A DNA stretch of 64,000 nt from an uncultured bacterium (GTDB taxonomy: Bacteria > Cyanobacteriota > Vampirovibrionia > Gastranaerophilales > Gastranaerophilaceae): assembly GCA_903868125.1 (NCBI GenBank), contig CAIPUE010000023.1, positions 83,977-147,976 on the forward strand, read 5' to 3'. The notes beneath the pieces are model-generated. The model ran no database searches and was not told the origin of the DNA. It saw only the letters and a program-made list of their open reading frames with translations. This document shows, piece after piece, positions 4,931 through 60,795 of this stretch. The position numbers and the translations under genes are program-made. The stretch's first letter is position 1, and every line of letters starts with the position of its first letter.

Positions 4931-6226
4931 CTAAACAAGAGTTTGTAAAACTTTTATCACAAACTCCAATGCGCCTTGATTTTGTTCAAATACCGTTTTG
5001 CAATCTTGGGAAGCTTTTTGATAATAAATTTCGTCTGATAGAAGTTTATGTAAATGATTTTGTAGTTCTTGAGGTGTTTTGACAATTTTTCCCGCATCAG
5101 AGGAGGTTAGTATTGAATAAATATCTTTAAAATTATGTATACTTGGACCTGATACGATAGGTTTTTTGAAAATTGTTGCTTCAAGGGGATTGTGGCCGCC
5201 TGTTTTGTTGAAACTTCCGCCGATAAATGCCACATCACAAACGGAGTAAAATTTTGCGAGTTCGCCCATTGTATCGAGTAAAATTACGTCATTTTGCTCA
5301 AAGTCGGCATTTTGAGAACGTTTTGAACAAGTCAATTCACTTTTTTTGATTAAGTTGAATACATTTTCGTTGCGTTCAGGGTGCCTTGGTGCGAGAATTA
5401 ATTTTAGATTTGGAAATTTCCTTTTAAGTTCTGAAAAAACTTTTAAAACAATCTCGTCTTCTCCGTTATGAGTACTTGCGGCAATCAAGATTTTGTGTTG
5501 AGAATTTTTTTCAAACCCAAGCGTGGATGCGTCAGGTTTATTGATGTCGAATTTTAAATTTCCCATTATTACTGTTGTTTTTGGATTTGCGCCGATAGAG
5601 ATTAATTTTTCATTATCTTGCTTACTTTGGGTAAAAATATTTGTGTATTTTTTTAAAATCGGGGAGAAAAAGAAAGACAATTTTTTGTAGCTTTTATAGG
5701 TTCTGTCTGAAATTCTGCCGTTAATAATAAATAGTGGAATCGGAATTTTTTGTTTATTCAGTGTATTAGCAAAGTTGGGCCAGAGTTCTGTTTCGGCAAT
5801 AAAAACCGCATCAGGTTTAAGTTTTTTAAGCATATTTTTGATGCAAAACGGAAAATCGAAAGGAAAATAGGAAATAAAATCAGCAGTGTTACTTAATTTT
5901 TTATGCGCGATTTCTTGTCCTGTCTTGGTTCCTGTGAGTACTATTATGTTAGTGTTTGGAAATGTTTCGCGCGTTTTTTTGATTAAATTTTCTATGGCGA
6001 TTACTTCTCCTACAGAAACTCCGTAGAAGACAATTGTTTTTTGAGGGCGGGATTGCAATCCCGCCATATTACTTGGCTCATTAAGAATTATGTCACTTTT
6101 TATTCCATTATAAAATCCGCATTTTTCTTTAAACCCAACTGTTAATTTCGGCTTAAATAAACCGGCAACGAGCCAAAATGGTAAAATTATTATAAAAGCT
6201 ATTGTTGATAAAATCCCATAAATCAT
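4931..6226 (-). CDS. waaA: 3-deoxy-D-manno-octulosonic acid (Kdo) transferase
   Basis: GT30 enzyme that adds Kdo from CMP-Kdo to lipid A precursor at the inner membrane; it implies an LPS-type outer membrane. At 431 residues it has the usual length. Family features are an N-terminal membrane anchor (IAFIIILPFWLVAGLF), the GEVIAIENLI and GTKTGQEIA region, AETELWPNF, ISDRTYKSYKK, the C-terminal nucleotide-binding half with APRHPERN, and GGHNPLEA. The ATG at 6226 has no Shine-Dalgarno site but a TAAAAT box ending 6 nt upstream. A perfect 20-bp palindrome (6046-6065) lies in frame in the N-terminal half and encodes part of MAGLQSRPQ, a segment that looks like an insertion. Confidence 0.93.
   Translation of the reverse strand: MIYGILSTIAFIIILPFWLVAGLFKPKLTVGFKEKCGFYNGIKSDIILNEPSNMAGLQSRPQKTIVFYGVSVGEVIAIENLIKKTRETFPNTNIIVLTGTKTGQEIAHKKLSNTADFISYFPFDFPFCIKNMLKKLKPDAVFIAETELWPNFANTLNKQKIPIPLFIINGRISDRTYKSYKKLSFFFSPILKKYTNIFTQSKQDNEKLISIGANPKTTVIMGNLKFDINKPDASTLGFEKNSQHKILIAASTHNGEDEIVLKVFSELKRKFPNLKLILAPRHPERNENVFNLIKKSELTCSKRSQNADFEQNDVILLDTMGELAKFYSVCDVAFIGGSFNKTGGHNPLEATIFKKPIVSGPSIHNFKDIYSILTSSDAGKIVKTPQELQNHLHKLLSDEIYYQKASQDCKTVFEQNQGALEFVIKVLQTLV
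6046..6065. repeat. Perfect 20-bp palindrome inside waaA
   Basis: GGCGGGATTGCAATCCCGCC is its own reverse complement. It is much more GC-rich than the surrounding gene and is preserved in frame. It resembles the GC-rich hairpins in other gaps of this window but has no GTAG foot. Confidence 0.85.
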
Positions 6227-6243
6227 AATTTTATTTTATTACA
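6227..6243 (-). promoter_or_regulatory. Probable leaderless promoter of waaA
   Basis: On the minus strand TGTAA-TAAAAT is followed by 6 nt (AAAATT) and then the ATG of waaA. No ribosome-binding site lies between. The spacing puts the transcription start at or next to the start codon. No good -35 box is seen. Confidence 0.5.
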
Positions 6244-6345
6244 AATATTATTTTATGGTATGACTTGATTTAAAATATTGTCTTTTTGGAGAATTAATTT
6301 TTCCGCTGTTCCTTATATTATGATTTTTTATATGGAGGAATAATC

Positions 6346-6921: not shown

Positions 6922-6941
6922 TTCATGTTATACTAAGTAAA

Positions 6942-9900
6942 ATGAAAATCAGACTAAAATTGTTGTTATTCATATTATTTTTTGTATTACTTTATGCTGC
7001 TTATTATTGGGGAGTTCCTGCAGTTGTGGATATTGGGCATAGGGTTCCTGAAATTCAGCGCATAGTAAAAAAAGAGTTGGGGACACAAATTGAGCTTAAA
7101 AATCCGAGTTTAAAAATGGGATTAACTCCTTCGATTTGGCTCAATGCTTCTGATTTTAAGATTGTGGATAAAAATTCTACTCCGTTGTCGGTTTCTAACT
7201 CTAAATTAAAAATTCGTCTGTTACCGTTGTTATTCGGAAAAATTCAACTGGCTTATTTTTCCTGTGATAAGATAAATTTGGATTTGAAGATTGATAAAAA
7301 TTTCCGATTTTATATCGGAAATCATTTGATTATAAAAAGCGCTAATTCTAAATTTTCGATTGAAGATTCCAAAATGAATATTGAAAGTTACAAAATTAAT
7401 TTAAAAGACGAAATACAAAATAAAGATGTTTTGATAAATGGCGATTACTTTGATTTAGAAAAATATAATTCAAAAAAATATATAAAATTTTCCACAAATT
7501 CAAAATTAAAAATTAAAAACCACTATTCAATTATAAACGCGGACGTGGATTTTAGACTTCCGTTCAAAAAAGGATTTGACACAAACGAGGTTGTTTTTGA
7601 CGGAGCCGTTACCAACTTAAGCTTAGCGGATTTATCGCCTTATATAAGAAAAATATCGAAAAATAAGATAAAAAAAATAGACGGGATTTTAAATATTGAA
7701 GCCGATACTAAAATTTTGAACAAAAAAACAACCAGAATAATGACTCAAATGGCTGTTGAAAAATTTTCGATTGAGGCGAAAGACAGTCCCAATAATAATC
7801 ATTTTAACAATAAATTCAACATTACGACAATTGTGGATGCTTCAAAGAATGTTTTAATCATTAAAACATTCAAAATTTTATCTAATAATATTGATGCTGA
7901 TATTAACGGAAAAATCAATAAAATAAGTTCTCAAAACCCTGTCCTGGATTTGTCGGTTGTCTTAAATAAATCGAGAACGGAAGATTTTATATCGCTTTTG
8001 CCTGCAAAAAACTCCGAAGAAATCGGTATGAATTTTATTGCTTTAAAAAAATACGAGTATTTTTCAGACCTTCAAGGAAAACTTTTTATCAAAGGAAAAA
8101 TCAAAAAACCTAAACTCACAGGTAAATTTCTTTCAACGAACGGATATTTAATTAAGCCTTTTGGGGGCAATATTCCAAAATCAACTTTAAAAATAGACTT
8201 CTTAGGCGAAAATTTTGATATGGATGTGATTTTCCCGACTTCAAGAAACGAAAGAATTCTTCTCAAGGGAAAGATTGATTTGTACGGCGGAAGCAAAATA
8301 CATTTAGACATTACAAGTACGCCTAATGTGGATTTGGAACTTACTGAATCAATTTTGAATCCTCTGCATGAGATTTTCAACTTTGCACTCGGTCCGCTCC
8401 CCGTTATGAAACTCAAGGGTGCAGGTAATATTAATTTAAAAATTAACGGTACAAGGGAAAATTCGCACCTTTTCGGGGTGTTCAATTTTAGAAATACCAC
8501 CGCGAGTTTTAATGGGATTAATATGTTGTTGAAAAATGGAGAGGGGAGTCTTGAGTTTAAAGATAAAGACACCCATCTTGTTACTAAAAAAGCCTTTTTA
8601 GATAATAAATTGGTTAAAATTGATGGAAAATGTTCGTTTTTCGGTGTTTTGGATTATGATATAACTGCAAGTAACCAAAATTGGGATAAATTACTTGATG
8701 TTGTAAAGACATCTCCGCTGTTAGGTGATATTCAAAAATTAATACCGGCCAAAAGCAATATTAAAGGGAAGTTTAACACAAAACTTAAACTTAAGGGGAA
8801 GGTTCAAGATATTAACGAATTTGCTTTAGGTAAAACGGTTTTTCTTGAAGGAAATATAAAATTACTCGGTAACGATGTTTTGTTCAATCAAATGCATACT
8901 TCAATCAAAAATTTATTTGGAACGGTTAATTTTAAAAATACAGATGCGGATTTTGATTTATACTCTTTGTTGGATAATTCAAAAATTTATATTAAGGGTA
9001 AATTAAAGAATAAAAATGTGAATTTAGAAATGAAAGGCAGTTTGAAGAATAATCCGTTTAATTTAACTTGTGATATAAAAAATATCTTTCAAAAAAAACA
9101 AATTATAAACGCAAAATTTATTTCCGAGAATTTCGACCTGTCAGAGCTCAAAAATTTAGTGCAATATCCTTTTATTCCTCAGAATGTAAAAAAATATCTT
9201 AACGAAATCTCAAACTCATCAGGACATGTCAGCTTAAAAGCTTCGATTAAAAATAATGTTGTAAATTCAAAAATTAAACTTAACGAGATTGCTTTTGCGT
9301 ATTCAAACATCCCCATCAAAATTTTTAGCGGGAATATCGAACTCAATGACGATAAACTAATTTTATATAAAGTTAATGCAAATCTCGATTCTATGCCTAT
9401 TTTGGTTGATGGGTTTATTACGAATATTTTTGAAAATCCTCAATTTAATCTTTACTTGAATTCCAAGCTGTCGCAAAATTTTGTTGAAAAATATATAAAT
9501 AAAAATGCCGTTTATCCTCTAAAAATCAAAGGTGACATTATTTATTCAGCAAGAATTAACGGCAATAAGAATTTTTTCAACGCAAAAACCGAACTAAATT
9601 TGCAGGAAGATTCAAATATTTCCTACATGGGTTCAATTGTGGGGGATGTAAATAATCCGATAAAAATATTTGCGGATACCAATATTTCAAAAAATTCCAT
9701 TTATGTGAACAATTTTCAATATGATAAATTAATTTCTTCTCAGAATGATAAACAATTTGTGTCTCCACAATTAAACGCCAGAGGGCGGATTGATGTGAGT
9801 AAAAATGATATTGTTTTCCATAATTTCAGGGTGAAAACTCAAAATCCTACCGATGCAAAAATATTTAACCTTTTATTCAAAAAATCAATGATTAAACAGG

Positions 9901-11138
9901 GGCTTTTTACCTCCAATGTCATCATAAACGATTCAATAGTTTCGCCGAAACTGTCAGGGTTTTTGAATTTTACGGGGGTGGATATTCCATTTGTTGATAC
10001 GATAATCAAGGATATTTCTCTTGATTTTGGTGCCAAAGATATTGAGATAAAATCGAAGGGCGAAATTTTTTCTAACAAGATAACTCTTTTTGCCAACGCA
10101 GAAAACAGATTAGTTGCGCCATATGTTTTTAATGATGTTGATATTTATCTTGGTAATCTTGATATAAATGAAATCTCAAAAAGTTTAAGAAAACTTGATT
10201 TGGATTCAGACAAGCGCAATTTAATCGACGAAAAATCAGGCGTTGCAGGCGGCAGTATTGCAAATGTGGTTATCAAAAAGGCAAAAGTGAAAGCGGACAG
10301 TGTCTTTGTTAGAAATATTTTTGCAAAAAATTTGTTGGCGGATTTTTCTTTGAATGAGAAACTTTTATTTTCTGTCAATAATTTCAGTTTTGATGTCGCA
10401 GAAGGCAGTGTGAACGGGAATTTTAAATATAATCTTCTTAATTCTAATTCAGCATTGGAGCTTCATGTCGATAAAGTAAACGCAAATTCAATGGCAGAAG
10501 CGTTGTTTGATTTGCCAAACCAAATTTTCGGTTCGTTAATTGGGGAAGCCGAGCTTGTATGTAACGGAAAAACGCATAAAACATGTATGGATACATTAAG
10601 CGGCAGTGGTGGGTTTAGGGTTGTGGACGGAAAAATGCCTAAACTCGGCTCGCTTGAATATTTGTTGAAATCGGCGAATTTGGTTAAAAGCGGGATTACG
10701 GGACTGACTATTAACAGTCTGATTGAGTTGGTTACGCCGCTTAAAACGGGACAGTTTGAAAATATTAACGGCAACTTTTTAATTAAATCGGGGATTGCAA
10801 ATGACATTCAAATTTTTTCTAAAGGGAACGATTTGAGTTTGTTTTTAACCGGTACTTATAATTTTTCAAGACTTGTTGCGGATATGAAAGTTTTTGGTCG
10901 TATTTCCAAAAAGATTTCCAACGTACTTGGTCCCATCGGAAATACTTCGCTTAATACGCTTTTCAATACCATTCCGGGCTTGAATTTGGCTGAAGAAAAT
11001 AATGCAGAATTTGTTAAGAATTTGAATAAAATTCCCGGATTTGAACTGAATGACAAATCATACAGGATTTTCTCCGCCGAGATTTACGGTGATATTAACG
11101 GTGAAAATTACGTTCAAAGCTTTAAGTGGATTGAGTAG
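6942..11138 (+). CDS. Large AsmA-like (AsmA/TamB/YhdP superfamily) envelope protein
   Basis: A 1398-residue protein with one N-terminal membrane anchor (LKLLLFILFFVLLYAAYYW) followed by a very long repetitive beta-strand periplasmic region. The last 200 residues match the AsmA-like C-terminal pattern (LSGSGGFRVVDGKMPKLGSLEYLL, then GNFLIKSGIANDIQIF). By family knowledge such proteins are bridge-like lipid carriers between inner and outer membrane; the individual substrate is unknown. I prefer the ATG at 6942 over an in-frame TTG at 6918, because the TTG overlaps the rubrerythrin stop and adds eight residues before a typical MKIRLKL start. Its 3' end overlaps the convergent EamA gene by 17 bp. 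Confidence 0.85.
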   Translation: MKIRLKLLLFILFFVLLYAAYYWGVPAVVDIGHRVPEIQRIVKKELGTQIELKNPSLKMGLTPSIWLNASDFKIVDKNSTPLSVSNSKLKIRLLPLLFGKIQLAYFSCDKINLDLKIDKNFRFYIGNHLIIKSANSKFSIEDSKMNIESYKINLKDEIQNKDVLINGDYFDLEKYNSKKYIKFSTNSKLKIKNHYSIINADVDFRLPFKKGFDTNEVVFDGAVTNLSLADLSPYIRKISKNKIKKIDGILNIEADTKILNKKTTRIMTQMAVEKFSIEAKDSPNNNHFNNKFNITTIVDASKNVLIIKTFKILSNNIDADINGKINKISSQNPVLDLSVVLNKSRTEDFISLLPAKNSEEIGMNFIALKKYEYFSDLQGKLFIKGKIKKPKLTGKFLSTNGYLIKPFGGNIPKSTLKIDFLGENFDMDVIFPTSRNERILLKGKIDLYGGSKIHLDITSTPNVDLELTESILNPLHEIFNFALGPLPVMKLKGAGNINLKINGTRENSHLFGVFNFRNTTASFNGINMLLKNGEGSLEFKDKDTHLVTKKAFLDNKLVKIDGKCSFFGVLDYDITASNQNWDKLLDVVKTSPLLGDIQKLIPAKSNIKGKFNTKLKLKGKVQDINEFALGKTVFLEGNIKLLGNDVLFNQMHTSIKNLFGTVNFKNTDADFDLYSLLDNSKIYIKGKLKNKNVNLEMKGSLKNNPFNLTCDIKNIFQKKQIINAKFISENFDLSELKNLVQYPFIPQNVKKYLNEISNSSGHVSLKASIKNNVVNSKIKLNEIAFAYSNIPIKIFSGNIELNDDKLILYKVNANLDSMPILVDGFITNIFENPQFNLYLNSKLSQNFVEKYINKNAVYPLKIKGDIIYSARINGNKNFFNAKTELNLQEDSNISYMGSIVGDVNNPIKIFADTNISKNSIYVNNFQYDKLISSQNDKQFVSPQLNARGRIDVSKNDIVFHNFRVKTQNPTDAKIFNLLFKKSMIKQGLFTSNVIINDSIVSPKLSGFLNFTGVDIPFVDTIIKDISLDFGAKDIEIKSKGEIFSNKITLFANAENRLVAPYVFNDVDIYLGNLDINEISKSLRKLDLDSDKRNLIDEKSGVAGGSIANVVIKKAKVKADSVFVRNIFAKNLLADFSLNEKLLFSVNNFSFDVAEGSVNGNFKYNLLNSNSALELHVDKVNANSMAEALFDLPNQIFGSLIGEAELVCNGKTHKTCMDTLSGSGGFRVVDGKMPKLGSLEYLLKSANLVKSGITGLTINSLIELVTPLKTGQFENINGNFLIKSGIANDIQIFSKGNDLSLFLTGTYNFSRLVADMKVFGRISKKISNVLGPIGNTSLNTLFNTIPGLNLAEENNAEFVKNLNKIPGFELNDKSYRIFSAEIYGDINGENYVQSFKWIE

Positions 11139-12623: not shown

Positions 12624-12652
12624 TTCTCACCTCTTACCTCTCACTTTTGTAT

Positions 12653-12664
12653 TATAATTATATT
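12653..12664 (+). promoter_or_regulatory. Probable leaderless promoter of mnmG
   Basis: TTTTGTAT is followed by TATAAT (12653-12658), then 6 nt, then ATG (12665). No Shine-Dalgarno sequence is present. The TTTTGTATTA context is nearly the same as upstream of bioD (48155-48167). Confidence 0.5.
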
Positions 12665-14545
12665 ATGGAATATTTAAAAAACAAGTTTGATATAATTGTC
12701 GTCGGGGCTGGACACGCCGGTTGCGAAGCAGCCATTGCAGCAGCTAATTTGGGAGCGAAGGTTCTCTTATGTTCGCTTAATCTTGATAATATAGCCCTAA
12801 TGCCTTGTAATCCTGCAATAGGGGGTCCTGCAAAATCAACATTGGTAAGAGAAATCGATGCGCTTGGCGGAATGATGGGAGAAGTTACTGATGCGACTTA
12901 TATCCAGATGAAGATGCTGAATTCTTCAAAAGGTCCTGCAGTGAGAGCATTAAGAGCTCAATCCGATAAAAAAGAATATATGAATTACATGCGCCATATT
13001 ATTGAAAAAAACGAAAATATTTATCTTAAACAATGCTGTATAAGTGATTTAATCGTCAAAGACGGCAAAATCCAAGGCGCAATTGACCAGTACGGGATTG
13101 AATATTTTGCGCCAAGTGTGATTTTAACAACGGGAACATCTCTTGAGGGAAAGATTTTTGTTGGTCTAAAATCCTACGCGGCAGGCAGATTGGGTGAAAT
13201 GCCCGCACTTGGACTTTCAGGTTGCCTTAAATCACTCGGTTTCACTGTAAAAAAGCTTAAAACAGGAACTCCTGCAAGGATTGACAGCAGAACAATCGAT
13301 TACTCAAAGATGACAATTCAACCGGGTGATGAGGAGTTAAATTTCTATTCTTTTAGACCCAATCGCCTTGTCCGTCCCCAAATACCATGTTATTTAACCA
13401 GAACAAATGAAAAGACGCACGAAATTATCAGGGCAAATTTAGATAAATCGCCTATGTATCAAGGCTTAATCGAGGGGGTTGGTCCGAGATACTGCCCATC
13501 TATTGAGGATAAAATTGTAAGGTTTTCTTCTAATCCCTCGCATCATATTTTTATTGAGCCCGAAGGGCTCGACACTTACGAGGTTTATGTTCAGGGGTTT
13601 TCGAGCAGTTTGCCTGCTGATGTGCAGGTTCAAATGCTACGTTCTTTGCCTGGATTGGAAAATACACATGTGATAAAACCAGCTTATGCGGTGGAATATG
13701 ATTACATTCCTGCAATTCAGCTTAACCACTCGCTTATGACGAGGCTCGTTCAAGGATTGTTTCATGCAGGACAGATTAACGGCACAAGCGGATATGAAGA
13801 AGCGGCGGCGCAGGGGCTTGTTGCCGGAATTAACGCGTTCAATTACTTAAATAATTCACCTATGCTTGAACTTTCAAGAAGTTCTTCGTATATTGGCACC
13901 CTGATTGATGATTTGGTCACAAAGGATATTCAAGAACCTTATAGAATGTTGACTTCACGCTCAGAATACAGGCTTTTATTAAGGCAAGATAACGCCGATG
14001 CAAGATTGACCCCAATCGGGCATAAAATCGGACTTGTTGACGACAAGCAGTTTGAAGTTTTTAATCAAAAACAACAAACAATCGAGGGCGAAATGAAACG
14101 GCTTAATTCTGGAAAAATCCCTGCGGATGCGAATATTAACGAAATTTTGGCGAAATATAACGAAAATATCGAACGCGGGATTAAATTGATTGATCTTTTA
14201 AAACGTCCTAATATTGATTACAAAATTTTGAAAGAATTGGACGAAAATACCCGCGAATTAAATTTGCCGAGAGATGTTTATGAGCAGGTAGAAATCCTTG
14301 TAAAATACGACGGATACATTAAACGTCAAAAAACACAGGTCGAGCAATCGGGGAAACTTGAGAAATATAAGATTCCCGATAATATTGATTACGCCAAAAT
14401 TCTTCACATTTCAACCGAAACAAGAGAGCGATTGGAAAAAATCAGACCCGCAACGCTCGCCCAAGCTTCCAGAATAGGTGGCGTAAAACCCGCAGATATT
14501 TCCGTTTTGATGGTGATGCTAGAGAGAAATTTAATCGAAAAATGA
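12665..14545 (+). CDS. mnmG: tRNA uridine-5-carboxymethylaminomethyl modification enzyme MnmG (GidA)
   Basis: FAD- and NADH-dependent enzyme that works with MnmE to modify U34 of tRNAs ending in A/G-split codons. At 626 residues it has the normal length. The dinucleotide-binding GAGHAG is at residues 14-19; GGPAKSTLVREIDALGG, KTGTPARID, INGTSGYEEAAAQGL and the C-terminal TSRSEYRLLLRQDNAD region are all present. The open frame extends upstream to 12533, but that part lies inside the divergent gene; the ATG at 12665 gives the conserved N-terminus. mnmE is not nearby. The stop overlaps the next gene by 4 nt (ATGA), which suggests translational coupling. Confidence 0.96.
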   Translation: MEYLKNKFDIIVVGAGHAGCEAAIAAANLGAKVLLCSLNLDNIALMPCNPAIGGPAKSTLVREIDALGGMMGEVTDATYIQMKMLNSSKGPAVRALRAQSDKKEYMNYMRHIIEKNENIYLKQCCISDLIVKDGKIQGAIDQYGIEYFAPSVILTTGTSLEGKIFVGLKSYAAGRLGEMPALGLSGCLKSLGFTVKKLKTGTPARIDSRTIDYSKMTIQPGDEELNFYSFRPNRLVRPQIPCYLTRTNEKTHEIIRANLDKSPMYQGLIEGVGPRYCPSIEDKIVRFSSNPSHHIFIEPEGLDTYEVYVQGFSSSLPADVQVQMLRSLPGLENTHVIKPAYAVEYDYIPAIQLNHSLMTRLVQGLFHAGQINGTSGYEEAAAQGLVAGINAFNYLNNSPMLELSRSSSYIGTLIDDLVTKDIQEPYRMLTSRSEYRLLLRQDNADARLTPIGHKIGLVDDKQFEVFNQKQQTIEGEMKRLNSGKIPADANINEILAKYNENIERGIKLIDLLKRPNIDYKILKELDENTRELNLPRDVYEQVEILVKYDGYIKRQKTQVEQSGKLEKYKIPDNIDYAKILHISTETRERLEKIRPATLAQASRIGGVKPADISVLMVMLERNLIEK

Positions 14546-23264: not shown

Positions 23265-24800
23265 TTACATTTGTTTGCCAGTTGTTTCTTCTTTTCGCTT
23301 GTCATAAGCCGCTTGAGCATTTGGTGAAAGTTTAGTTCTATCAATTGTATTTAAATTTTCCACGAATTTAATCAATAAAACTTGTAGGCTTGGATCGATT
23401 GAATTTATTCGTTCAATCATAATATTGAAGGCAGAAGTTTTTCTTAGTTGCTGTGTATATTTTTCTTTATTTTTATAGTCAAGTCCTCCAATAAGTTCCA
23501 TTGCCTTGGAAATAACCTCGCTTGATGGGTTGTCGGCAAGAATTGCGTCCAATACACTAAGTAATTCGGTTGACGAAAGCGAGGACATGAGTGCTATTTT
23601 TTGTGGATTTGACAACTTTTGAACAGCCCTATTCAATGCAGTTTTATTAGGTGAGTTTATCATTTTTTTAATTTCTTCCGCTACGCTTGAATTACTCGTT
23701 TGCGCTTTTGGTGAGGTGGTGCTTTGTGCCACTGGTGTAGATTGTTTTGCTTCTGCCTCTTTTAAAGTTTGTTTAACACTTTCATATCCTGAAGAAACCA
23801 AAGTACTTTTTATTTGTGCTTGATTAGATTTATCGCATAAATAAGCGTTAGAAGCTGCTGCCCTGATTGCACCTTCATTTTTTGTAGCTACGGTCATTCG
23901 GGTTGCTGCGATTTGATTATCTTTGTGCAACGTATAAATATTTTTCGCCGCAAACTCTAATACTTCTTGATATTTTGATGTCATGGTTCTTTTGTAGATA
24001 GATTGTTGAACATCCTTATCATACTTGCCGAGTTGTTGGGTTAAAATCTTTTGAATTTCTATTTTACCCAACTTGAAATAAGCTTTGTGAGCGTAATCTT
24101 GATTTTCACGACTAAGTTTTGAAACTAGGCCTGCAGCGATTTTTTGTGCTTCTTCGTTGCCTGATTGAACAACTATATCGGTCAAAGGTCTTTGATTACC
24201 CTTGTCACATTCGTGGACTGCTCTTGCAGTCCCAATTTCCGCTCTATGTCTTAATTCGGAGGTTCTTGCATCTTTGATAGCCGATTTCGCTGCTGAAACC
24301 TGATTTTCTTTTTCCAATATAGAAATTTCTTTTGCCATCATTTCGTAATCATCGCCGTTTTGGGTATTTGAAAGCAATTTTTTATAGTCGGTCAATTGAA
24401 TTTGAAGTTTTTCAGACCTTGTTTTATCTTTAAGCGTCTCAAAGTGACCGGTAATATATTTTTTTAAGAATTTTTCTTTGTCTTCACGGTTTGCATTAGA
24501 ATATGATGGACCGTAATATCTTGTTAAACGTTCATCTACGGTTTCACCTGTTTTTACCAATGGTTTCTCTTCGTTTTGCGCGGTTGTTTTTTCTACTTGC
24601 AATCCGGTATTCTTATTTGCCGTAGTATCTGAATTTGCAAAGGGGATATTGCCCATCTTGTCAAAATTTGCCGTAGGTTTTTGAGGGGCAAATAGGTTTG
24701 TTGCCATAAGTTGCTCTTTAGCATTTGGCATTATACTCGGAGGCGCCGAATCAGTCGACCACCAAGGTAGTTTAATGGCAATATTGTCTAAAAAACTCAT
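23265..24800 (-). CDS. Unknown protein with exact 31-residue tandem helical repeats
   Basis: A 511-residue protein with no signal peptide or membrane segment. After a low-complexity N-terminal region (1-100) and a helical region, a repeat block has turn motifs EKENQ (163), DKGNQ (199), SRENQ (230), DKDVQ (261), HKDNQ (292) and DKSNQ (323). The last five are spaced exactly 31 residues apart; the first is 36 from the second. Each unit looks like two helices, as in HEAT or armadillo-type solenoids. A Ser/Thr/Gln linker (353-375) leads to a second helical domain (MINSPNKTALNRAVQKL, then SSTELLSVLDAILADN). The ATG at 24800 has a GAGGGA site. A scaffold or protein-binding role is inferred. Confidence 0.75.
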   Translation of the reverse strand: MSFLDNIAIKLPWWSTDSAPPSIMPNAKEQLMATNLFAPQKPTANFDKMGNIPFANSDTTANKNTGLQVEKTTAQNEEKPLVKTGETVDERLTRYYGPSYSNANREDKEKFLKKYITGHFETLKDKTRSEKLQIQLTDYKKLLSNTQNGDDYEMMAKEISILEKENQVSAAKSAIKDARTSELRHRAEIGTARAVHECDKGNQRPLTDIVVQSGNEEAQKIAAGLVSKLSRENQDYAHKAYFKLGKIEIQKILTQQLGKYDKDVQQSIYKRTMTSKYQEVLEFAAKNIYTLHKDNQIAATRMTVATKNEGAIRAAASNAYLCDKSNQAQIKSTLVSSGYESVKQTLKEAEAKQSTPVAQSTTSPKAQTSNSSVAEEIKKMINSPNKTALNRAVQKLSNPQKIALMSSLSSTELLSVLDAILADNPSSEVISKAMELIGGLDYKNKEKYTQQLRKTSAFNIMIERINSIDPSLQVLLIKFVENLNTIDRTKLSPNAQAAYDKRKEETTGKQM

Positions 24801-24947
24801 AATCCCTCATAATTTTTATCTCTTATATATATAATAAATATATCCAGTCGCAAAAATTGCATGTTATACCAAACGTTTGAGGGGATTTGTAATAAAAATT
24901 TACAATGGCAATTTATTGAAAGATTTTTCGTTTATATTTATATAAGA

Positions 24948-25053
24948 AGACCACAGCACAAGTATAGAAAATTTGTTTTGACTGCTTTCTCCGAAATCTT
25001 TGATTTCGAGAGAAATGTCCCTATTCGGGTTCTTAATTGTGTGGTGGTCTCAT
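24948..25053. mobile_element. Short MITE-like copy related to the element at 19834-20064
   Basis: The ends AGACCACAGCACAA and TTGTGTGGTGGTCT are imperfect inverted repeats. The internal 86 nt are identical, in reverse orientation, to those of the longer element near tRNA-Glu. A further solitary end-like sequence (GTGGTCTCAAGTTACA) lies at 25070-25085, directly before the promoter of the next gene. The rest of the 24801-25105 gap shows no gene. Confidence 0.75.
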
Positions 25054-25090
25054 AAGTTAAAAAGACACAGTGGTCTCAAGTTACAAAGCA

Positions 25091-25105
25091 TGGTATAATA
25101 AATCT
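25091..25105 (+). promoter_or_regulatory. Probable leaderless promoter with extended -10
   Basis: TGG-TATAAT (25091-25099) is followed by 6 nt and then the ATG at 25106, with no Shine-Dalgarno site. It lies immediately after a MITE-end-like sequence, so the repeat may have contributed the promoter. Confidence 0.55.
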
Positions 25106-25303
25106 ATGGATGAGAAAAAAAAGTTAAAAGTTTTGGATAGAACGGTTGAAAAGCTTGATGAGATTGTCGAAGAACAAATCAAGCCTCAAATTAAGCACCA
25201 AAATAGTCCAATTAATCAAACCAATCCGATTTATAAGAATTTGGCAAAATTTAACAATTCTAAAGTCGGAGAAAAACTTTCGATAAAAGACATATTAAGA
25301 TAA
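25106..25303 (+). CDS. Small charged protein of unknown function
   Basis: A 65-residue, Lys/Glu-rich, probably coiled-coil protein (KLKVLDRTVEKLDEIVEEQI) with a C-terminal GEKLSIKDILR. The open frame extends upstream to 25070, but the promoter position favours ATG 25106. It is followed closely by another small helical gene and prmC, which suggests one operon. No family was recognised. Confidence 0.6.
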   Translation: MDEKKKLKVLDRTVEKLDEIVEEQIKPQIKHQNSPINQTNPIYKNLAKFNNSKVGEKLSIKDILR

Positions 25304-36705: not shown

Positions 36706-37227
36706 TTACCCATTCAAAAATTCGATTAAAAACTCTAAGGCTTTTTGAGAAAACATAAATTTCATTGTTTTTCTTTTATAGTTGGGATTGAGTTCAAATT
36801 TTTTAATTTTTGTGGAGCATTTGTTTTTGATAGCAACGTATAAAAGTCCCACGTTTTTGTTTTTTGAGGCCCCTGCGGGGCCCGCAATACCTGTTGTGAC
36901 AAGCGCAACATCACAGTTTGTTTTTTCAAAAAGCCCTTCAGCCATCTCTTTTGCACATTCTTCGCTTATTGCACCGTGTTTCGATAGTGTTTGCTCGCTT
37001 ACGTTCAGAAGCTTCGTTTTAGCTTCGTTGGCGTAGGTTACGTAATTTTCTTTAATATAAGCCGAGCTTCCCGCAACATCTGTTAGACGGGAGCTGATAA
37101 GCCCGCCTGTACAGGATTCTGCAACGGAAATAGTCATGGAGTTTCTGAGCAGAATTTTTGCAATGGATTGCTCTGTTTTTGTATCAATTTGTTTGAAAAA
37201 AAGTTTTATATTTTCGAGTGTTGTCAT
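36706..37227 (-). CDS. pncC: Nicotinamide-nucleotide amidohydrolase (CinA C-terminal domain type)
   Basis: A 173-residue stand-alone CinA C-terminal domain, which deamidates NMN to nicotinate mononucleotide in NAD recycling. Motifs AESCTGGLISSRLTDVAGSS, ISEECAKEMAEG and VTTGIAGPAGAS are all conserved. The N-terminal molybdopterin-like domain of full CinA is absent. The ATG at 37227 has no ribosome-binding site but follows a perfect promoter by 6 nt (see 37228-37262), the best leaderless candidate in the window. Confidence 0.93.
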   Translation of the reverse strand: MTTLENIKLFFKQIDTKTEQSIAKILLRNSMTISVAESCTGGLISSRLTDVAGSSAYIKENYVTYANEAKTKLLNVSEQTLSKHGAISEECAKEMAEGLFEKTNCDVALVTTGIAGPAGASKNKNVGLLYVAIKNKCSTKIKKFELNPNYKRKTMKFMFSQKALEFLIEFLNG

Positions 37228-37262
37228 TGTATTAATTTAATCCGTAAGATTATTTTTGTCAA
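37228..37262 (-). promoter_or_regulatory. Consensus promoter, leaderless, of pncC
   Basis: On the minus strand TTGACA (37257-37262), 17-nt spacer, TAAATT (37234-37239), 6 nt (AATACA), then ATG. Transcription should begin at or one base before the start codon. No Shine-Dalgarno sequence can fit. Confidence 0.8.
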
Positions 37263-47224: not shown

Positions 47225-47260
47225 AATATTCTCCTTATTCCATTTTTTAACACGTTAGAC

Positions 47261-47273
47261 TATAATTTAGTTT
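47261..47273 (+). promoter_or_regulatory. Probable leaderless promoter of the Xer recombinase gene
   Basis: TATAAT (47261-47266), 7 nt, then ATG (47274). No Shine-Dalgarno and no good -35. A second in-frame ATG lies 6 nt further on. Confidence 0.45.
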
Positions 47274-48140
47274 ATGAGCATGCAGATTTTATCACAGTAT
47301 TTGGAGTATTTGGAAGTCGAAAAAGGACTTTCTATTAATACTCTTGATGCTTATAGGCGTGATTTGATTTCGTTTTTGGAGTTTTGTTTTATTCTTGGTG
47401 TGCAGGAGCCGATTCAAATTCAAAGAACACATCTTAATTCTTATATAATAGATTTGAGAGAAAAAAAATATTCTGCTACAAGTGTTATGCGAAAAATAGC
47501 TTCTTTAAGGGGATTTTTTAAGTGGCTTTGTGCCGCTGAAATTTGCTTGCAAAATCCTACGTTAACTCTTGAACAGCCGAGAATCCCACGTAAATTGCCA
47601 AAAGTTATGACTGTTCTAGAGATTGAAAATATTTTGAGGGAAAATTTGAGCAAAACGGAACGGCTTGTTGTAGAATTGCTCTATGGTTGCGGGCTTCGGG
47701 TGTCTGAACTGGTGGGATTGAAAACAAATAGTATTGATTTAAGTGCAAATTATTTGAAGTGTAGCGGAAAAGGTTCAAAAGAAAGACTCGTGCCCTTTGG
47801 GAACATGGCAAAAACGGCATTGCTCGACTATTTTATTCAGAGAGATTTCTTGATAAAAAAATATAATGTTGATACAAAAAACCTTCTGATTTCAGACGGA
47901 GGGAAGTTTTTGACTCGTCAGGATGTGTATAATTTTATTCATGAACAGGGGAAAGTCATCCATAAAAACATTTCGCCGCATACTCTAAGACACAGTTTTG
48001 CTACACATTTGCTTGAGAATGGGGCTGATTTGAGGATTGTTCAGGAACTTTTGGGACATGCTGATGTTTCAACGACCCAGCTTTATACTCACATAAGTAA
48101 AAAACGTTTAAAAGAAGTTTATTTTTCGATTAATAAATAG
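47274..48140 (+). CDS. xerD: Tyrosine recombinase XerC/XerD
   Basis: A 288-residue chromosome-dimer resolvase type recombinase. The N-terminal SAM-like core-binding domain (YLEYLEVEKGLSINTLDAYRRDLISFL) and all catalytic residues are visible: Arg in YGCGLRVSELVGL, Lys in GKGSKERLVPFG, His and Arg in HTLRHSFATHLL, His in LLGHADVSTTQ, and the Tyr nucleophile in LYTHISKKRL. Size and motifs fit XerD better than an integrase, but XerC cannot be excluded. It breaks the usual ribosomal gene order. Confidence 0.9.
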   Translation: MSMQILSQYLEYLEVEKGLSINTLDAYRRDLISFLEFCFILGVQEPIQIQRTHLNSYIIDLREKKYSATSVMRKIASLRGFFKWLCAAEICLQNPTLTLEQPRIPRKLPKVMTVLEIENILRENLSKTERLVVELLYGCGLRVSELVGLKTNSIDLSANYLKCSGKGSKERLVPFGNMAKTALLDYFIQRDFLIKKYNVDTKNLLISDGGKFLTRQDVYNFIHEQGKVIHKNISPHTLRHSFATHLLENGADLRIVQELLGHADVSTTQLYTHISKKRLKEVYFSINK

Positions 48141-48156
48141 GCTTATCAACCATTTT

Positions 48157-48173
48157 TGTATTAAAATAATTCT
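48157..48173 (+). promoter_or_regulatory. Probable leaderless promoter of bioD
   Basis: TTTTGTATTAAAAT contains TAAAAT (48162-48167), then 6 nt and ATG (48174). The 14-nt context is almost identical to that upstream of mnmG. No ribosome-binding site. Confidence 0.5.
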
Positions 48174-48896
48174 ATGCTAAATATTTTTATAACAGGTTCT
48201 GATATCAATGTCGGAAAAACATTTATAACCGCGGGGATTGCTGCGACCATGCAAAGTTTGGGGTATGCAACCTGCGTTTATAAACCGATTCAGACGGGTG
48301 CGATTGAAAAAAACGGATTTGCTCAATCGCCGGATTTAGCTTTTGTAAAAAATATTGACCCTTATATTAAAACATATTCAAGTTATTTGTTAAAAATGCC
48401 TATGATGCCTGTTGTAGCTGCCGAAGCTGAAAATATCATCATTGATAAAAATAGCATTAAAAAAGATTATGAGGCGATTATAAAAAGGCACGATTGCACA
48501 ATTGTAGAAAGTACAGGCGGAATTATGACTCCGATTGCACCCAATCTTTTGGTTTCAGATATCATAAAAATTTTAGAGTTACCCGTCTTAATTATTATCA
48601 AACCTGATTCAGGAACGGTAAATCAAACCCTTTTGACAATTAATCACTCAATATCAAAAGGAATAAAAGTTCGCGGGGTTATTATAAATAATTTCCCTGA
48701 AAGTACTGTTGATGTTGACATGAAAACTATTCCAAGATTGATTGAGGAATATTCTGACGCAAAGATTTTGGGGGTAGTTAAACATTTTCATAATGTGAAA
48801 CAAATCAACCCAAGCGATTTAATTACAAACATCTTGAACGGAATCGATATAGAAAGCGTATTCGATGTCAAAATTGCGAAACTTGATGTTCAATAA
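48174..48896 (+). CDS. bioD: ATP-dependent dethiobiotin synthetase
   Basis: P-loop enzyme that closes the ureido ring of biotin using CO2. A 240-residue protein with ITGSDINVGKTFITAGIA (P-loop with the family's GxxxGKT spacing), YKPIQTGA, the VESTGGIMTPI switch region and the C-terminal GVIINNFP. No other biotin genes are nearby. The DNA after it (48897-48907) leads straight into a convergent small gene. Confidence 0.93.
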   Translation: MLNIFITGSDINVGKTFITAGIAATMQSLGYATCVYKPIQTGAIEKNGFAQSPDLAFVKNIDPYIKTYSSYLLKMPMMPVVAAEAENIIIDKNSIKKDYEAIIKRHDCTIVESTGGIMTPIAPNLLVSDIIKILELPVLIIIKPDSGTVNQTLLTINHSISKGIKVRGVIINNFPESTVDVDMKTIPRLIEEYSDAKILGVVKHFHNVKQINPSDLITNILNGIDIESVFDVKIAKLDVQ

Positions 48897-49244: not shown

Positions 49245-51080
49245 ATGCAAATAGTTGAAGTAAAAAATAATTTGGTCAAAGTAAGCTATGATACATCGGC
49301 TGAGAGCCTTATTTTATCAGGATTTATAATTATCAAGGATGAACTTTTGTCTTTTATAGGGCAAATTGTTCATCTTGAAGCTAATTCTAATGGAAACTTT
49401 GCTGTTGCAAAACTTCTTTTCACATTTAATGATAATGGGGTTATAACAAATTATAACGGTGCAATTCCCGATTTCAAAAGCCTTTTGGATATTGTGCAGC
49501 CGGAGGAACTTTTGGGACTTTTACCCGCACAATTCCCTATTGTTATTGGTGAACTGGCTCAGCAAAAAACTTTATTAAAACTTGATAGAAGTTTGTTTGA
49601 AGACAAATTGCTTGTATGTTCTGAAAAAGAAGAAGATAATTATACTTTAATTAAAAACTGTGTTAGGCAATTGGTTTATAGCGGGAAAAAAGTTTTGGTG
49701 ATTGATTCAAGTTTAGGTAGGAACGATTCCATGTATGCCGAAAATATTGAGGGGCATATTATTGCAGGAAAAAACTTTAAACTTCCTTTAAATTACGAGA
49801 CAATTAATTTTATATATGAAAAAGGACTTGACGATGCTACGGCGGAAAGTAAAGCTCTTATTCAGGAAATCTTTTTGGAAGTGCAAAATTACGTGAATAC
49901 TTTACCTGAAAAATTTATTCCGTTTGAAACTTTCAAAGATGTGGTTGATTCTCAGTACGAGGAATTGGGACTTGTAGAGCTTGTTTTACTCAAAAATAAA
50001 CTTTTAAAATATTACGAAGCCGGAATTTTTGCTCAGGAACAAAAAGAATTTGATTCGCTCAAAAATTCTTTGGAACAAAAATCTGCAACAATTTTAGATT
50101 TATCAGGGATTGACGAAAAAATTCAAAGAGAAATGATTGCCCATGCTTATTCTGTGATAAGCCAACTTGGTAAGGATGTGTATGTTATTTGTAACGTCGG
50201 AGATACGAATTCGGATAAAAAGTTGTTAAAGCAGATTTTTACCGCAAAAAATGTTTATTCTACGATTATTTGTGCTTATTCGTACAAATATTTGAAAGAA
50301 TTAAAGCAACTTTCAAAGAATTTAATTCTTTTCGCCCCGATTCAACAGCAGAACGATTTTGCCGGATATAATACTTTTTTAAGTAAGTTAAATCCTCAAG
50401 AATTTATAATTTATGGTCAAGCAACTCACAACCTTCCTTTGATTGTGAAATTAGAGGAGATTGCAGATTCACGTTTTAAAAATTTAACACAAGAACAAGT
50501 CCGGACGGAGGAGCAAAATTCTAAAGAGGATTTGCTGGATGAACAAATAAAACGTGATGTGGACGAAATTTATACCGTGCCAAAAGTTGAGAAAAATTCG
50601 GAAGAAGAATTTGCGGCTGAAATTGTTGAAGATGATTTGACTGAAGACGATTTGGATTTTATTGAAGATTTGCATATTAACGAAGATGGCTTTGTAGATG
50701 AAGTATTTGACGAGGAGAAGAAGTCAATTAGCAAAGAAGTCTTAAGCGAGCCTGAGGAAAAAGAAACTGATGAAGCTGATATGTTTTCAAATGTTTTGTC
50801 TCAGCAAGCAAAAGAGCGTGAAATTGAGTTACCTGCGGTTGATATTCTACCTGTAAAAATGGCTTCTGCTCCTATTGTTCCGATTTATTCGGCAGAAATT
50901 GAACCCAAAACGCAATCGGATGCACTTGAGCAGGGTGATAGTGTTACTCATTCTAAATACGGAAAAGGAACGGTTGAAAAATTAATCACTTATGGTTCAA
51001 AAACACTATGTTCAATAAATTTTGATAATGTCGGAAGACGTCTTTTAGACCCTACTTTGGCGGAAATAAAGAAGATTTAG
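49245..51080 (+). CDS. HerA/FtsK-like protein with degenerate P-loop and UvrD-type C-terminal domain
   Basis: A 611-residue soluble protein. The N-terminal 80 residues resemble a HAS-barrel-type beta domain. The next region follows the layout of a HerA-like ATPase (KLLVCSEKEEDNYTLIKNCVRQLVYSGKKVLVIDSS), but the place of Walker A has no GK[S/T]; LILFAPIQQ and LSKLNPQEFIIYGQATHNLP follow. A long acidic linker (about residues 410-540) leads to a C-terminal GDSVTHSKYGKGTVEKLI...INFDNVGRRLL motif, as in the RNA polymerase-binding Tudor-like domain of UvrD/PcrA. The start is ATG 49245 with AAGGG. The role is unknown. Confidence 0.7.
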   Translation: MQIVEVKNNLVKVSYDTSAESLILSGFIIIKDELLSFIGQIVHLEANSNGNFAVAKLLFTFNDNGVITNYNGAIPDFKSLLDIVQPEELLGLLPAQFPIVIGELAQQKTLLKLDRSLFEDKLLVCSEKEEDNYTLIKNCVRQLVYSGKKVLVIDSSLGRNDSMYAENIEGHIIAGKNFKLPLNYETINFIYEKGLDDATAESKALIQEIFLEVQNYVNTLPEKFIPFETFKDVVDSQYEELGLVELVLLKNKLLKYYEAGIFAQEQKEFDSLKNSLEQKSATILDLSGIDEKIQREMIAHAYSVISQLGKDVYVICNVGDTNSDKKLLKQIFTAKNVYSTIICAYSYKYLKELKQLSKNLILFAPIQQQNDFAGYNTFLSKLNPQEFIIYGQATHNLPLIVKLEEIADSRFKNLTQEQVRTEEQNSKEDLLDEQIKRDVDEIYTVPKVEKNSEEEFAAEIVEDDLTEDDLDFIEDLHINEDGFVDEVFDEEKKSISKEVLSEPEEKETDEADMFSNVLSQQAKEREIELPAVDILPVKMASAPIVPIYSAEIEPKTQSDALEQGDSVTHSKYGKGTVEKLITYGSKTLCSINFDNVGRRLLDPTLAEIKKI

Positions 51081-58919: not shown

Positions 58920-58971
58920 GATTTCCTCCTTATTTATTTACAATTTCATTATACAACAATTATATTTTTTG

Positions 58972-58986
58972 TGATAAATTAATCTT
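58972..58986 (+). promoter_or_regulatory. Probable leaderless promoter of the ABC exporter
   Basis: TGA-TAAATT (58972-58980, extended -10), 6 nt (AATCTT), then ATG (58987). No Shine-Dalgarno sequence. The -10 and spacer resemble those of pncC (TAAATT-AATACA). Confidence 0.55.
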
Positions 58987-60795
58987 ATGTATGTTGAAAA
59001 TTTTATTAAATTTATAAAATGTTATGGTAAAGGTCGTAAACTTAAACTTTTCGGCTTTTTTATATTTTCTTTAATCGCAGGTGCGTTAGAGTTTTTGGGG
59101 ATTGCTTTAATATATCCGTTTATTTTGTTGATAATTAAGCCCGAAAGCGTCATTCATACAAAATATTATTCTGATTTCGCTAATTGTTTTCATGTGCATA
59201 ATGTGTTGATAAATGCCTTTATATTAGGTTTTATTGTTATGTGTTTGTTTATTATAAAGAATTTGTTTATGATTTATTGTTTGTATGTACAAAATAAATT
59301 CATAAACAATTGGAAACTTGCAATAAGTAAGAAATTTATGTATTATTACCTATTTTCACCCTATAAAAATTCTCTAAACACTTCACCGTCTGAAAAAATT
59401 TACAATCTGACTTTTTTAGTAAATCAAACACTAGACGGATTTATATTCCGTTTAATGACTTTTGTTACGAATATCGTAATTGTAGTAATGATTTTGGGAT
59501 TATTGTTTATGAAATTTGCTTTTGCAGCATTTGTAACGTGTATTTTTGTCTTTTTTAGTATGCTTTTTCAGAGTAAAATATTTAAGGCAAAAATAAAAGA
59601 AATTTCTCAAAAACTTTTTAAGCTATCATCTTTAAATAATGAAAAAACGATGGAAAGCATTAATAATTTAAAAGAAATAAAAATATTGTCAGCTGAAAAT
59701 TATTTTTATAATGAATATAACATCACACAAAAGGAGTTTACTCAAATTCTTTTTGAGAACAATTTTTACGGTGCAATTCCGCCTTATATGATTGAAACGT
59801 TGGCAGTTTTATCATTATTTTTACTGGCTTGGCTTATTTCTTTTCAAAATATTGACAACACATCATGGATGATTGCTTCTTATGCAATTGTTGTGGCGGC
59901 AGTTTTCAGAATTGCACCGGCTATGAATAGAATTCAATCTTCAATAAATGCGATTAATACGTCACGTGATTTTGTAAAAACAATGATAATGGAATATAAA
60001 AATAAGGATTTAGATTTTATTGAAGAAAAAGTTGATTTTAATATTGAGTTTAAAGACAGTATAAAGTTGAAAAATATTTATTTTTCTTACAGAAAAGAAC
60101 CGGTTGTCAAGGATTTGAGCTTGGAGATAAAAAAAGGTGAATTTGTTGGCGTAATAGGACTTTCAGGAGCAGGCAAAAGCACTCTTGCTGATATTATAAT
60201 GGGGCTTTTACCAGTGGATAGCGGTGAAGTAGTTGTGGATGATATTGAGCTTAATTATAAAAATTTTAGTGCTTTAAGAAAACTGATAGGCTATGTTCCA
60301 CAACAAATAAATATTTTGGACGGATCATTTAAGCGAAATGTAGCATGGGGTATCGATGAAAAAGACATTGATGAAGAAAAAGTTATTGAGGTTTTAAAAA
60401 GAGCTCAATTATACGATTTTGTAAATGGATTCGAAAATGGAATAAATTCAAAAGCAATCGTTGGTTATACGGGTATTTCTCAAGGTCAAAAACAACGATT
60501 AGCAATAGCTAGAGCATTATACAGAGACCCTGCAATCTTAATTTTTGATGAGGCTACTTCGTCATTGGATGTTGAAACGGAGCATTTGATAACTAAAATG
60601 TTGGACTCTCTAAGGGGAGAAAAAACGATTATCGCTATAGCGCATAGGCTTTCGACTTTGAAAAGTTGTGATAGATTAATTTACTTAAAAGCGGGTAAGC
60701 TTGAGGATTCGGGTACGTTTGAAGAGTTGTTAACAAGGCAAGCGGAGTTTGAAAAAATGGTAAACTTGTCAAGCTTGCGTGTTCCTACTGATTAA
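58987..60795 (+). CDS. ABC exporter with fused membrane and ATPase domains (lipid/oligosaccharide flippase type)
   Basis: A 602-residue half-transporter, functional as a dimer. Six N-terminal membrane helices are followed by the ATPase: Walker A GLSGAGKST, Q-loop GYVPQQINILDGSF, signature GISQGQKQRLAIARAL, Walker B LIFDEATSSLD and His in AIAHRLST. The signature SQGQK replaces the usual SGGQ but is found in PglK-like flippases. Neighbours give no substrate. An O-antigen, glycan or lipid substrate is possible. Confidence 0.88.
   Translation: MYVENFIKFIKCYGKGRKLKLFGFFIFSLIAGALEFLGIALIYPFILLIIKPESVIHTKYYSDFANCFHVHNVLINAFILGFIVMCLFIIKNLFMIYCLYVQNKFINNWKLAISKKFMYYYLFSPYKNSLNTSPSEKIYNLTFLVNQTLDGFIFRLMTFVTNIVIVVMILGLLFMKFAFAAFVTCIFVFFSMLFQSKIFKAKIKEISQKLFKLSSLNNEKTMESINNLKEIKILSAENYFYNEYNITQKEFTQILFENNFYGAIPPYMIETLAVLSLFLLAWLISFQNIDNTSWMIASYAIVVAAVFRIAPAMNRIQSSINAINTSRDFVKTMIMEYKNKDLDFIEEKVDFNIEFKDSIKLKNIYFSYRKEPVVKDLSLEIKKGEFVGVIGLSGAGKSTLADIIMGLLPVDSGEVVVDDIELNYKNFSALRKLIGYVPQQINILDGSFKRNVAWGIDEKDIDEEKVIEVLKRAQLYDFVNGFENGINSKAIVGYTGISQGQKQRLAIARALYRDPAILIFDEATSSLDVETEHLITKMLDSLRGEKTIIAIAHRLSTLKSCDRLIYLKAGKLEDSGTFEELLTRQAEFEKMVNLSSLRVPTD

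Follow-up and report, generated by a model that had tools for sequence, protein, structure and literature searches.

Promoters abutting start codons predict leaderless genes in a Gastranaerophilales genome

In a genome of Candidatus Gastranaerophilales, a gut-dwelling, non-photosynthetic group of Cyanobacteriota, promoter-like elements are found at a sharply fixed distance from the start codons of a class of genes. The arrangement is best explained by SigA promoters placed so that transcription would start on the A of the start codon, making the mRNA leaderless; from the sequence evidence we put the probability of this reading at roughly 0.93. A SigA (sigma-70-type) promoter, in many cases of the extended -10 type in which TTTRTGn precedes TATAAT or TAAAAT, would direct RNA polymerase to begin at the A of the ATG. 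The resulting mRNA, having no 5' leader, would bind a 70S ribosome together with initiator tRNA, which is the general route of leaderless mRNAs, and would not depend on Shine-Dalgarno (SD) pairing. The genome would be a mixed one, its SD-led genes being accompanied by about 100 that are leaderless, with housekeeping or biosynthetic functions in many cases. Extra upstream promoters may also give leadered mRNAs of the same genes.

Candidate leaderless genes in the window

The window analysed here is a stretch of 64,000 nucleotides. Its XerD protein has relatives at 98% and 82% identity, followed by dozens labelled Candidatus Gastranaerophilales/Melainabacteria. The source genome comprises 60 contigs (1.887 Mb, 99.7% complete, G+C about 35%); genome-wide counts cover 1.853 of the 1.887 Mb, with 1709 genes called. 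Gene starts were chosen by coding score and start-codon type only, upstream motifs not being used, and spacing is given throughout as the number of nucleotides between the -10 hexamer and the start codon.

A first-pass annotation had proposed widespread leaderless-type promoters, with pncC as the best example. This gene (36706..37227, minus strand), encoding a CinA C-terminal type amidase of 173 aa, is predicted to be leaderless. Its promoter (37228..37262, minus strand) has the described layout, with TTGACA (37257-37262), 17 nt, TAAATT (37234-37239) and 6 nt to the ATG, which ends at 37227, and no SD site. A TAA lies in frame inside the -10 element, so translation cannot begin upstream. The product matches Pfam CinA (4.8e-49), and a genus relative aligns over residues 1-173. 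As a best example pncC was poorly chosen: it scores low on the genome's own leaderless matrix, having a consensus -35 but no TTTRTG extension.

The 6-7-nt spacing reported for six other genes was found in each, together with the core TTTGTrn plus -10 said to be common to four of them. These four all have a spacing of 6 nt to the ATG. They are the Kdo transferase gene waaA (4931-6226, minus strand; promoter 6227..6245, TTTGTAA-TAAAAT with the -10 at 6233-6238, matrix score 11.3), mnmG (12665-14545, plus strand; promoter 12646..12664, TTTGTAT-TATAAT, -10 at 12653-12658, score 13.2), bioD (48174-48896, plus strand; promoter 48155..48173, TTTGTAT-TAAAAT, -10 at 48162-48167, score 12.4) and an ABC exporter gene (58987-60795, plus strand; promoter 58968..58986, TTTGTGA-TAAATT, -10 at 58975-58980, score 8.6). 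The mnmG product has a GIDA match, and in most genomes the alignment with its orthologue begins at residue 1; bioD encodes an AAA_26 domain and the exporter has an ABC_tran match. A gene of 65 aa starting at 25106 has TGG-TATAAT (-10 at 25094-25099) 6 nt before its ATG (promoter 25087..25105, plus strand, score 8.4), while xerD (47274-48140, plus strand) has TATAAT at 47261-47266, 7 nt before the ATG (promoter 47254..47273, score 8.9). The list had overlooked one further candidate promoter at 6922..6941 (plus strand; CATGT-TATACT, -10 at 6929-6934, 7 nt to the ATG, score 11.3), which precedes a 1398-aa ORF (6942-11138, plus strand). This candidate is less certain because a co-directional upstream gene is only 20 nt away. 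Clear AAAGGA-type sites, as had been noted, are present at the ribosomal genes of the window.

Two further features of the window were recorded. Three long ORFs, at 6942-11138 (plus strand, 1398 codons), 23265-24800 (minus strand, 511 codons) and 49245-51080 (plus strand, 611 codons), have no Pfam match. At 24947-25046 lies a MITE-like repeat, about 100 bp long and with the terminal inverted repeats GAGACCACTGCACAA / TTGTGCAGTGGTCTC, which is dispersed through the genome in 17 further near-full copies, for example on contigs C23, C49, C15, C19 and C41; at C41 49315 and C23 167097 a leaderless-type gene starts about 20 nt beyond the end of the repeat.

Spacing and anatomy of the promoter class across the genome

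Exact TATAAT boxes before the 1060 unit-first genes are concentrated at two spacings, with 43 boxes at spacing 6 and 11 at spacing 7, compared to 0-3 at each spacing from 0 to 5 and from 8 to 14. At this G+C content, TATAAT-like hexamers could be expected before starts at every spacing by chance, and TANNNT by itself is indeed common. The peak, however, is limited to spacings 6 and 7 and is gone one or two bases to either side. Dinucleotide shuffles give 1.9 TATAAT per position and no peak, none of 436 inner-operon genes has an exact TATAAT at spacing 6-7, and no spacing peak was found at 8630 internal in-frame ATGs or 13985 antisense ATGs. Chance is refuted by these spacing controls, and we consider its probability negligible.

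Scoring with a matrix over positions -19 to -7 placed 99 of 1433 genes at spacing 6-7, compared to 0-4 genes for those spacing pairs up to about 15 nt in which neither 6 nor 7 occurs. Training was done at spacing 6-7 and favours this class, but the matrix-free TATAAT counts agree with the result. From about 16 nt onwards the counts rise for a second time, over a broad range that represents the leadered genes, and the recognisable promoters of SD-led genes mostly lie 16-45 nt upstream. Considering exact TATAAT boxes up to 50 nt from starts with an upstream gap of at least 20 nt, 63 of 273 have a spacing of 6-7. Hardly any promoters in this genome lie at spacings 8-14, where the leader would be about 1-8 nt; it seems that a leader is either missing altogether or has room for an SD site. 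The enrichment at -12 to -7 across the genome, on which the first-pass annotation had made its proposal depend, is thus very strong and sharply spaced, and SD-led and leaderless-type genes do stand side by side, as it had stated. Its term "widespread" applies in that the class occurs genome-wide, but the class makes up only some 6% of all genes, or roughly 7-10% when unit-first genes are taken alone.

The -19 to -7 matrix defines a leaderless-type set of 102 genes, including those for RadA, LepA, methionyl-tRNA synthetase, Ffh, ProB, alanine racemase and BioB as well as KdsA, DeoC, MetF, RsmH, RibE, HisH and RimI. Aligned on the -10, the profile displays T-35 T-34, TTT at -19 to -17 and T-15 G-14, followed by the -10 itself. 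The hallmarks of SigA/sigma-70 promoters are present, namely TATAAT as the -10, its upstream extension and, at a distance of about 17 nt, a -35, the last being of consensus type at pncC and weak across the class (at least 4 of 6 matches in 31 of 102 genes; control about 14%). Given the usual distance from -10 to transcription start, the A of the ATG would be +1. The -1 base, which played no part in gene selection, is T or C in 89 of the 102 genes and G in none; at spacing 6 it is T in 72% and never G. A pyrimidine at -1 followed by A at +1 agrees with a transcription start at the start codon. An SD site precedes only 2 of the 102 genes, whereas among genes separated from their upstream neighbour by more than 20 nt it precedes 502 of 1240. 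An upstream gene is less than 20 nt away in only 2 of the 102, and in 61 the reading frame is closed by a stop within the 10 codons before the start. The preference for ATG does not differ significantly from that of SD-led genes (98/102 vs 650/691, p = 0.50), and the 5' coding ends are neither significantly more A-rich (p = 0.14) nor significantly less folded (p = 0.08). A promoter type specific to leaderless genes was considered and rejected, since leadered TATAAT promoters do not differ in the TG extension or the -35. They do have the TTT tract less often (44/175 vs 28/63 in the leaderless class, p = 0.006, one of three tests).

Two other explanations accept the motif and read it differently. 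According to one, the start codons are wrong: the ATG would mark the 5' end of the mRNA, and the true start of translation would lie further downstream, preceded by an ordinary SD leader. The calls do rest on coding score, and some genes may be misplaced. However, they were blind to the motif and the spacing is still exact, and a chance ATG at +1 is not expected in about 100 genes. Moreover, in several genes the alignment to family models or orthologues begins at residue 1 or 2; for RadA, RibE, HisH and Ffh the family models start at residue 1 or 2 (RadA 1-450 aligned on 1-454, RibE 1-202 on 1-201), and in most xerD orthologues an ATG lies 6-8 nt past the -10. We therefore regard misplaced starts as very unlikely.

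According to the other, the AT-rich element is a translation signal, for example a ribosome site of the S1 or AU-rich kind, and the mRNA starts further upstream. Two encoded proteins with four S1 repeats each, plus bS21, would fit such a signal, and non-SD initiation of this kind has been reported for other cyanobacteria, as cited in PMC9581028. Yet the motif runs on into a promoter-like -19 to -14 region and a weak -35, the base preference at -1 is promoter-like, the motif is missing at inner-operon genes, and the same TATAAT stands 16-45 nt before leadered genes. A translation signal is about as improbable as misplaced starts, and SigA promoters positioned for leaderless transcription remain the preferred reading. 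Loss of bS1 or bS21 as the cause was rejected, as S1-repeat proteins and bS21 are both encoded. The exact 16S end GGATCACCTCCTT (anti-SD) was not found in the contigs read.

Conservation at xerD and distribution in Cyanobacteriota

The promoter geometry of xerD is kept before most of 80 orthologues. A match to at least five of the six TATAAT positions is found at spacing 6 in 22 of them and at spacing 7 in 20, and in many of the rest the box at 6-9 nt is TAAATT or TATAAA-like. Some xerD copies closely follow an upstream gene. In a group made up mainly of rumen genomes, TATAAT is followed by a short leader that contains an SD site of the GGAG type, and the start codon is TTG. The presence of both leaderless-type and SD-led xerD orthologues indicates that switching between the modes occurs, although the sequences are related and the switches are not a count of independent events. 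Across the genes called in the 80 xerD loci, 50 boxes are at spacing 6 and 13 at spacing 7, the xerD copies themselves included. Two loci labelled otherwise, L080 ("uncultured Acinetobacter sp.") and L061 ("Heliobacteriaceae bacterium"), carry a Gastranaerophilales-like xerD and promoter and are probably mislabelled bins.

Gene-level histograms in other families have few genes, and the distribution therefore rests on whole-genome pattern counts, comparing TATAAT-N6-7-ATG with TATAAT-N9-10-ATG in 116 Cyanobacteriota genomes. In the family of the window genome N6-7 exceeds N9-10 in 49 of 49 genomes (10084 vs 6266). The counts are 1200 vs 847 in 19 other psbA-lacking genomes, and 3167 vs 3299 (ratio 0.96, no excess) in 48 psbA-bearing genomes taken as a group. 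A peak at spacing 6/7 is found in the psbA-lacking families f1, f2, f5, f9, f12 and f13, while f30 lacks it, f16 has hardly any, and the counts in f3 and f19 are too few. When spacings 3-4 and 12-13 were added, the peak held in G010, G013, G041, G021, G038, G026, G018, G032 and G004, was weaker in the f2 genomes, and was flat in G022 and G104. The psbA-bearing genome G086 (f27) has an unexpected peak, with 1/21/3/6 matches at spacings 3-4/6-7/9-10/12-13, unlike other photosynthetic families. Leaderless initiation could be a shared and possibly ancestral trait of non-photosynthetic Cyanobacteriota that most oxygenic cyanobacteria have lost or retain only in much reduced form; we hold this only tentatively, at less than even odds.

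Known leaderless systems

Leaderless genes were predicted in 207 of 953 genomes by Zheng et al. 2011 (PMC3160421), and the leaderless group of GeneMarkS-2, as summarised in PMC9581028, makes up 21.6% of bacterial species. Both surveys place leaderless genes in Actinobacteria, Deinococcus-Thermus and others, and Zheng et al. describe many genomes of Cyanobacteria as relying neither on SD-led genes nor on leaderless ones. Leaderless mRNAs in Cyanobacteria are regarded as possible by Nakagawa 2017 (PMC5397173), where Melainabacteria are not mentioned. The first-pass annotation knew of no description in this lineage; likewise, in the open-licence papers searched "leaderless" never occurs together with Melainabacteria, Gastranaerophilales or Vampirovibrio. 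The mechanism is well known in bacteria, and what seems new is the lineage.

Gastranaerophilales, common gut bacteria, would join the lineages with predicted leaderless genes, within a phylum reported to use them little. The contrast within the phylum and the mode-switching orthologues such as those of xerD offer natural material on the gain and loss of leaderless initiation. The start codon of a leaderless-type gene directly reveals where its promoter lies, and gene finders that expect an SD site may misplace such starts.

The class resembles the TA-led bacterial genes of PMC3160421 in having TANNNT placed about 12 nt ahead of the start codon, in lacking an SD site, in occurring alongside SD-led genes and in being exclusively promoter-proximal. 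It differs from them in a -10 that is nearly a full TATAAT with a TTTRTG extension, and in its lineage, Melainabacteria being unmentioned in the passages concerned of PMC3160421 and PMC9581028. Model cyanobacteria belong to the same phylum and likewise have a minority of genes with transcription starting at or within 10 nt of the start codon: 19 leaderless transcripts are reported for Synechococcus elongatus UTEX 2973 (PMC6091082), and 6-8% of primary starts in Prochlorococcus lie within 10 nt of start codons (PMC5607370). Unlike the genome studied here, however, the psbA-bearing group has no excess of TATAAT at 6-7 over 9-10 nt.
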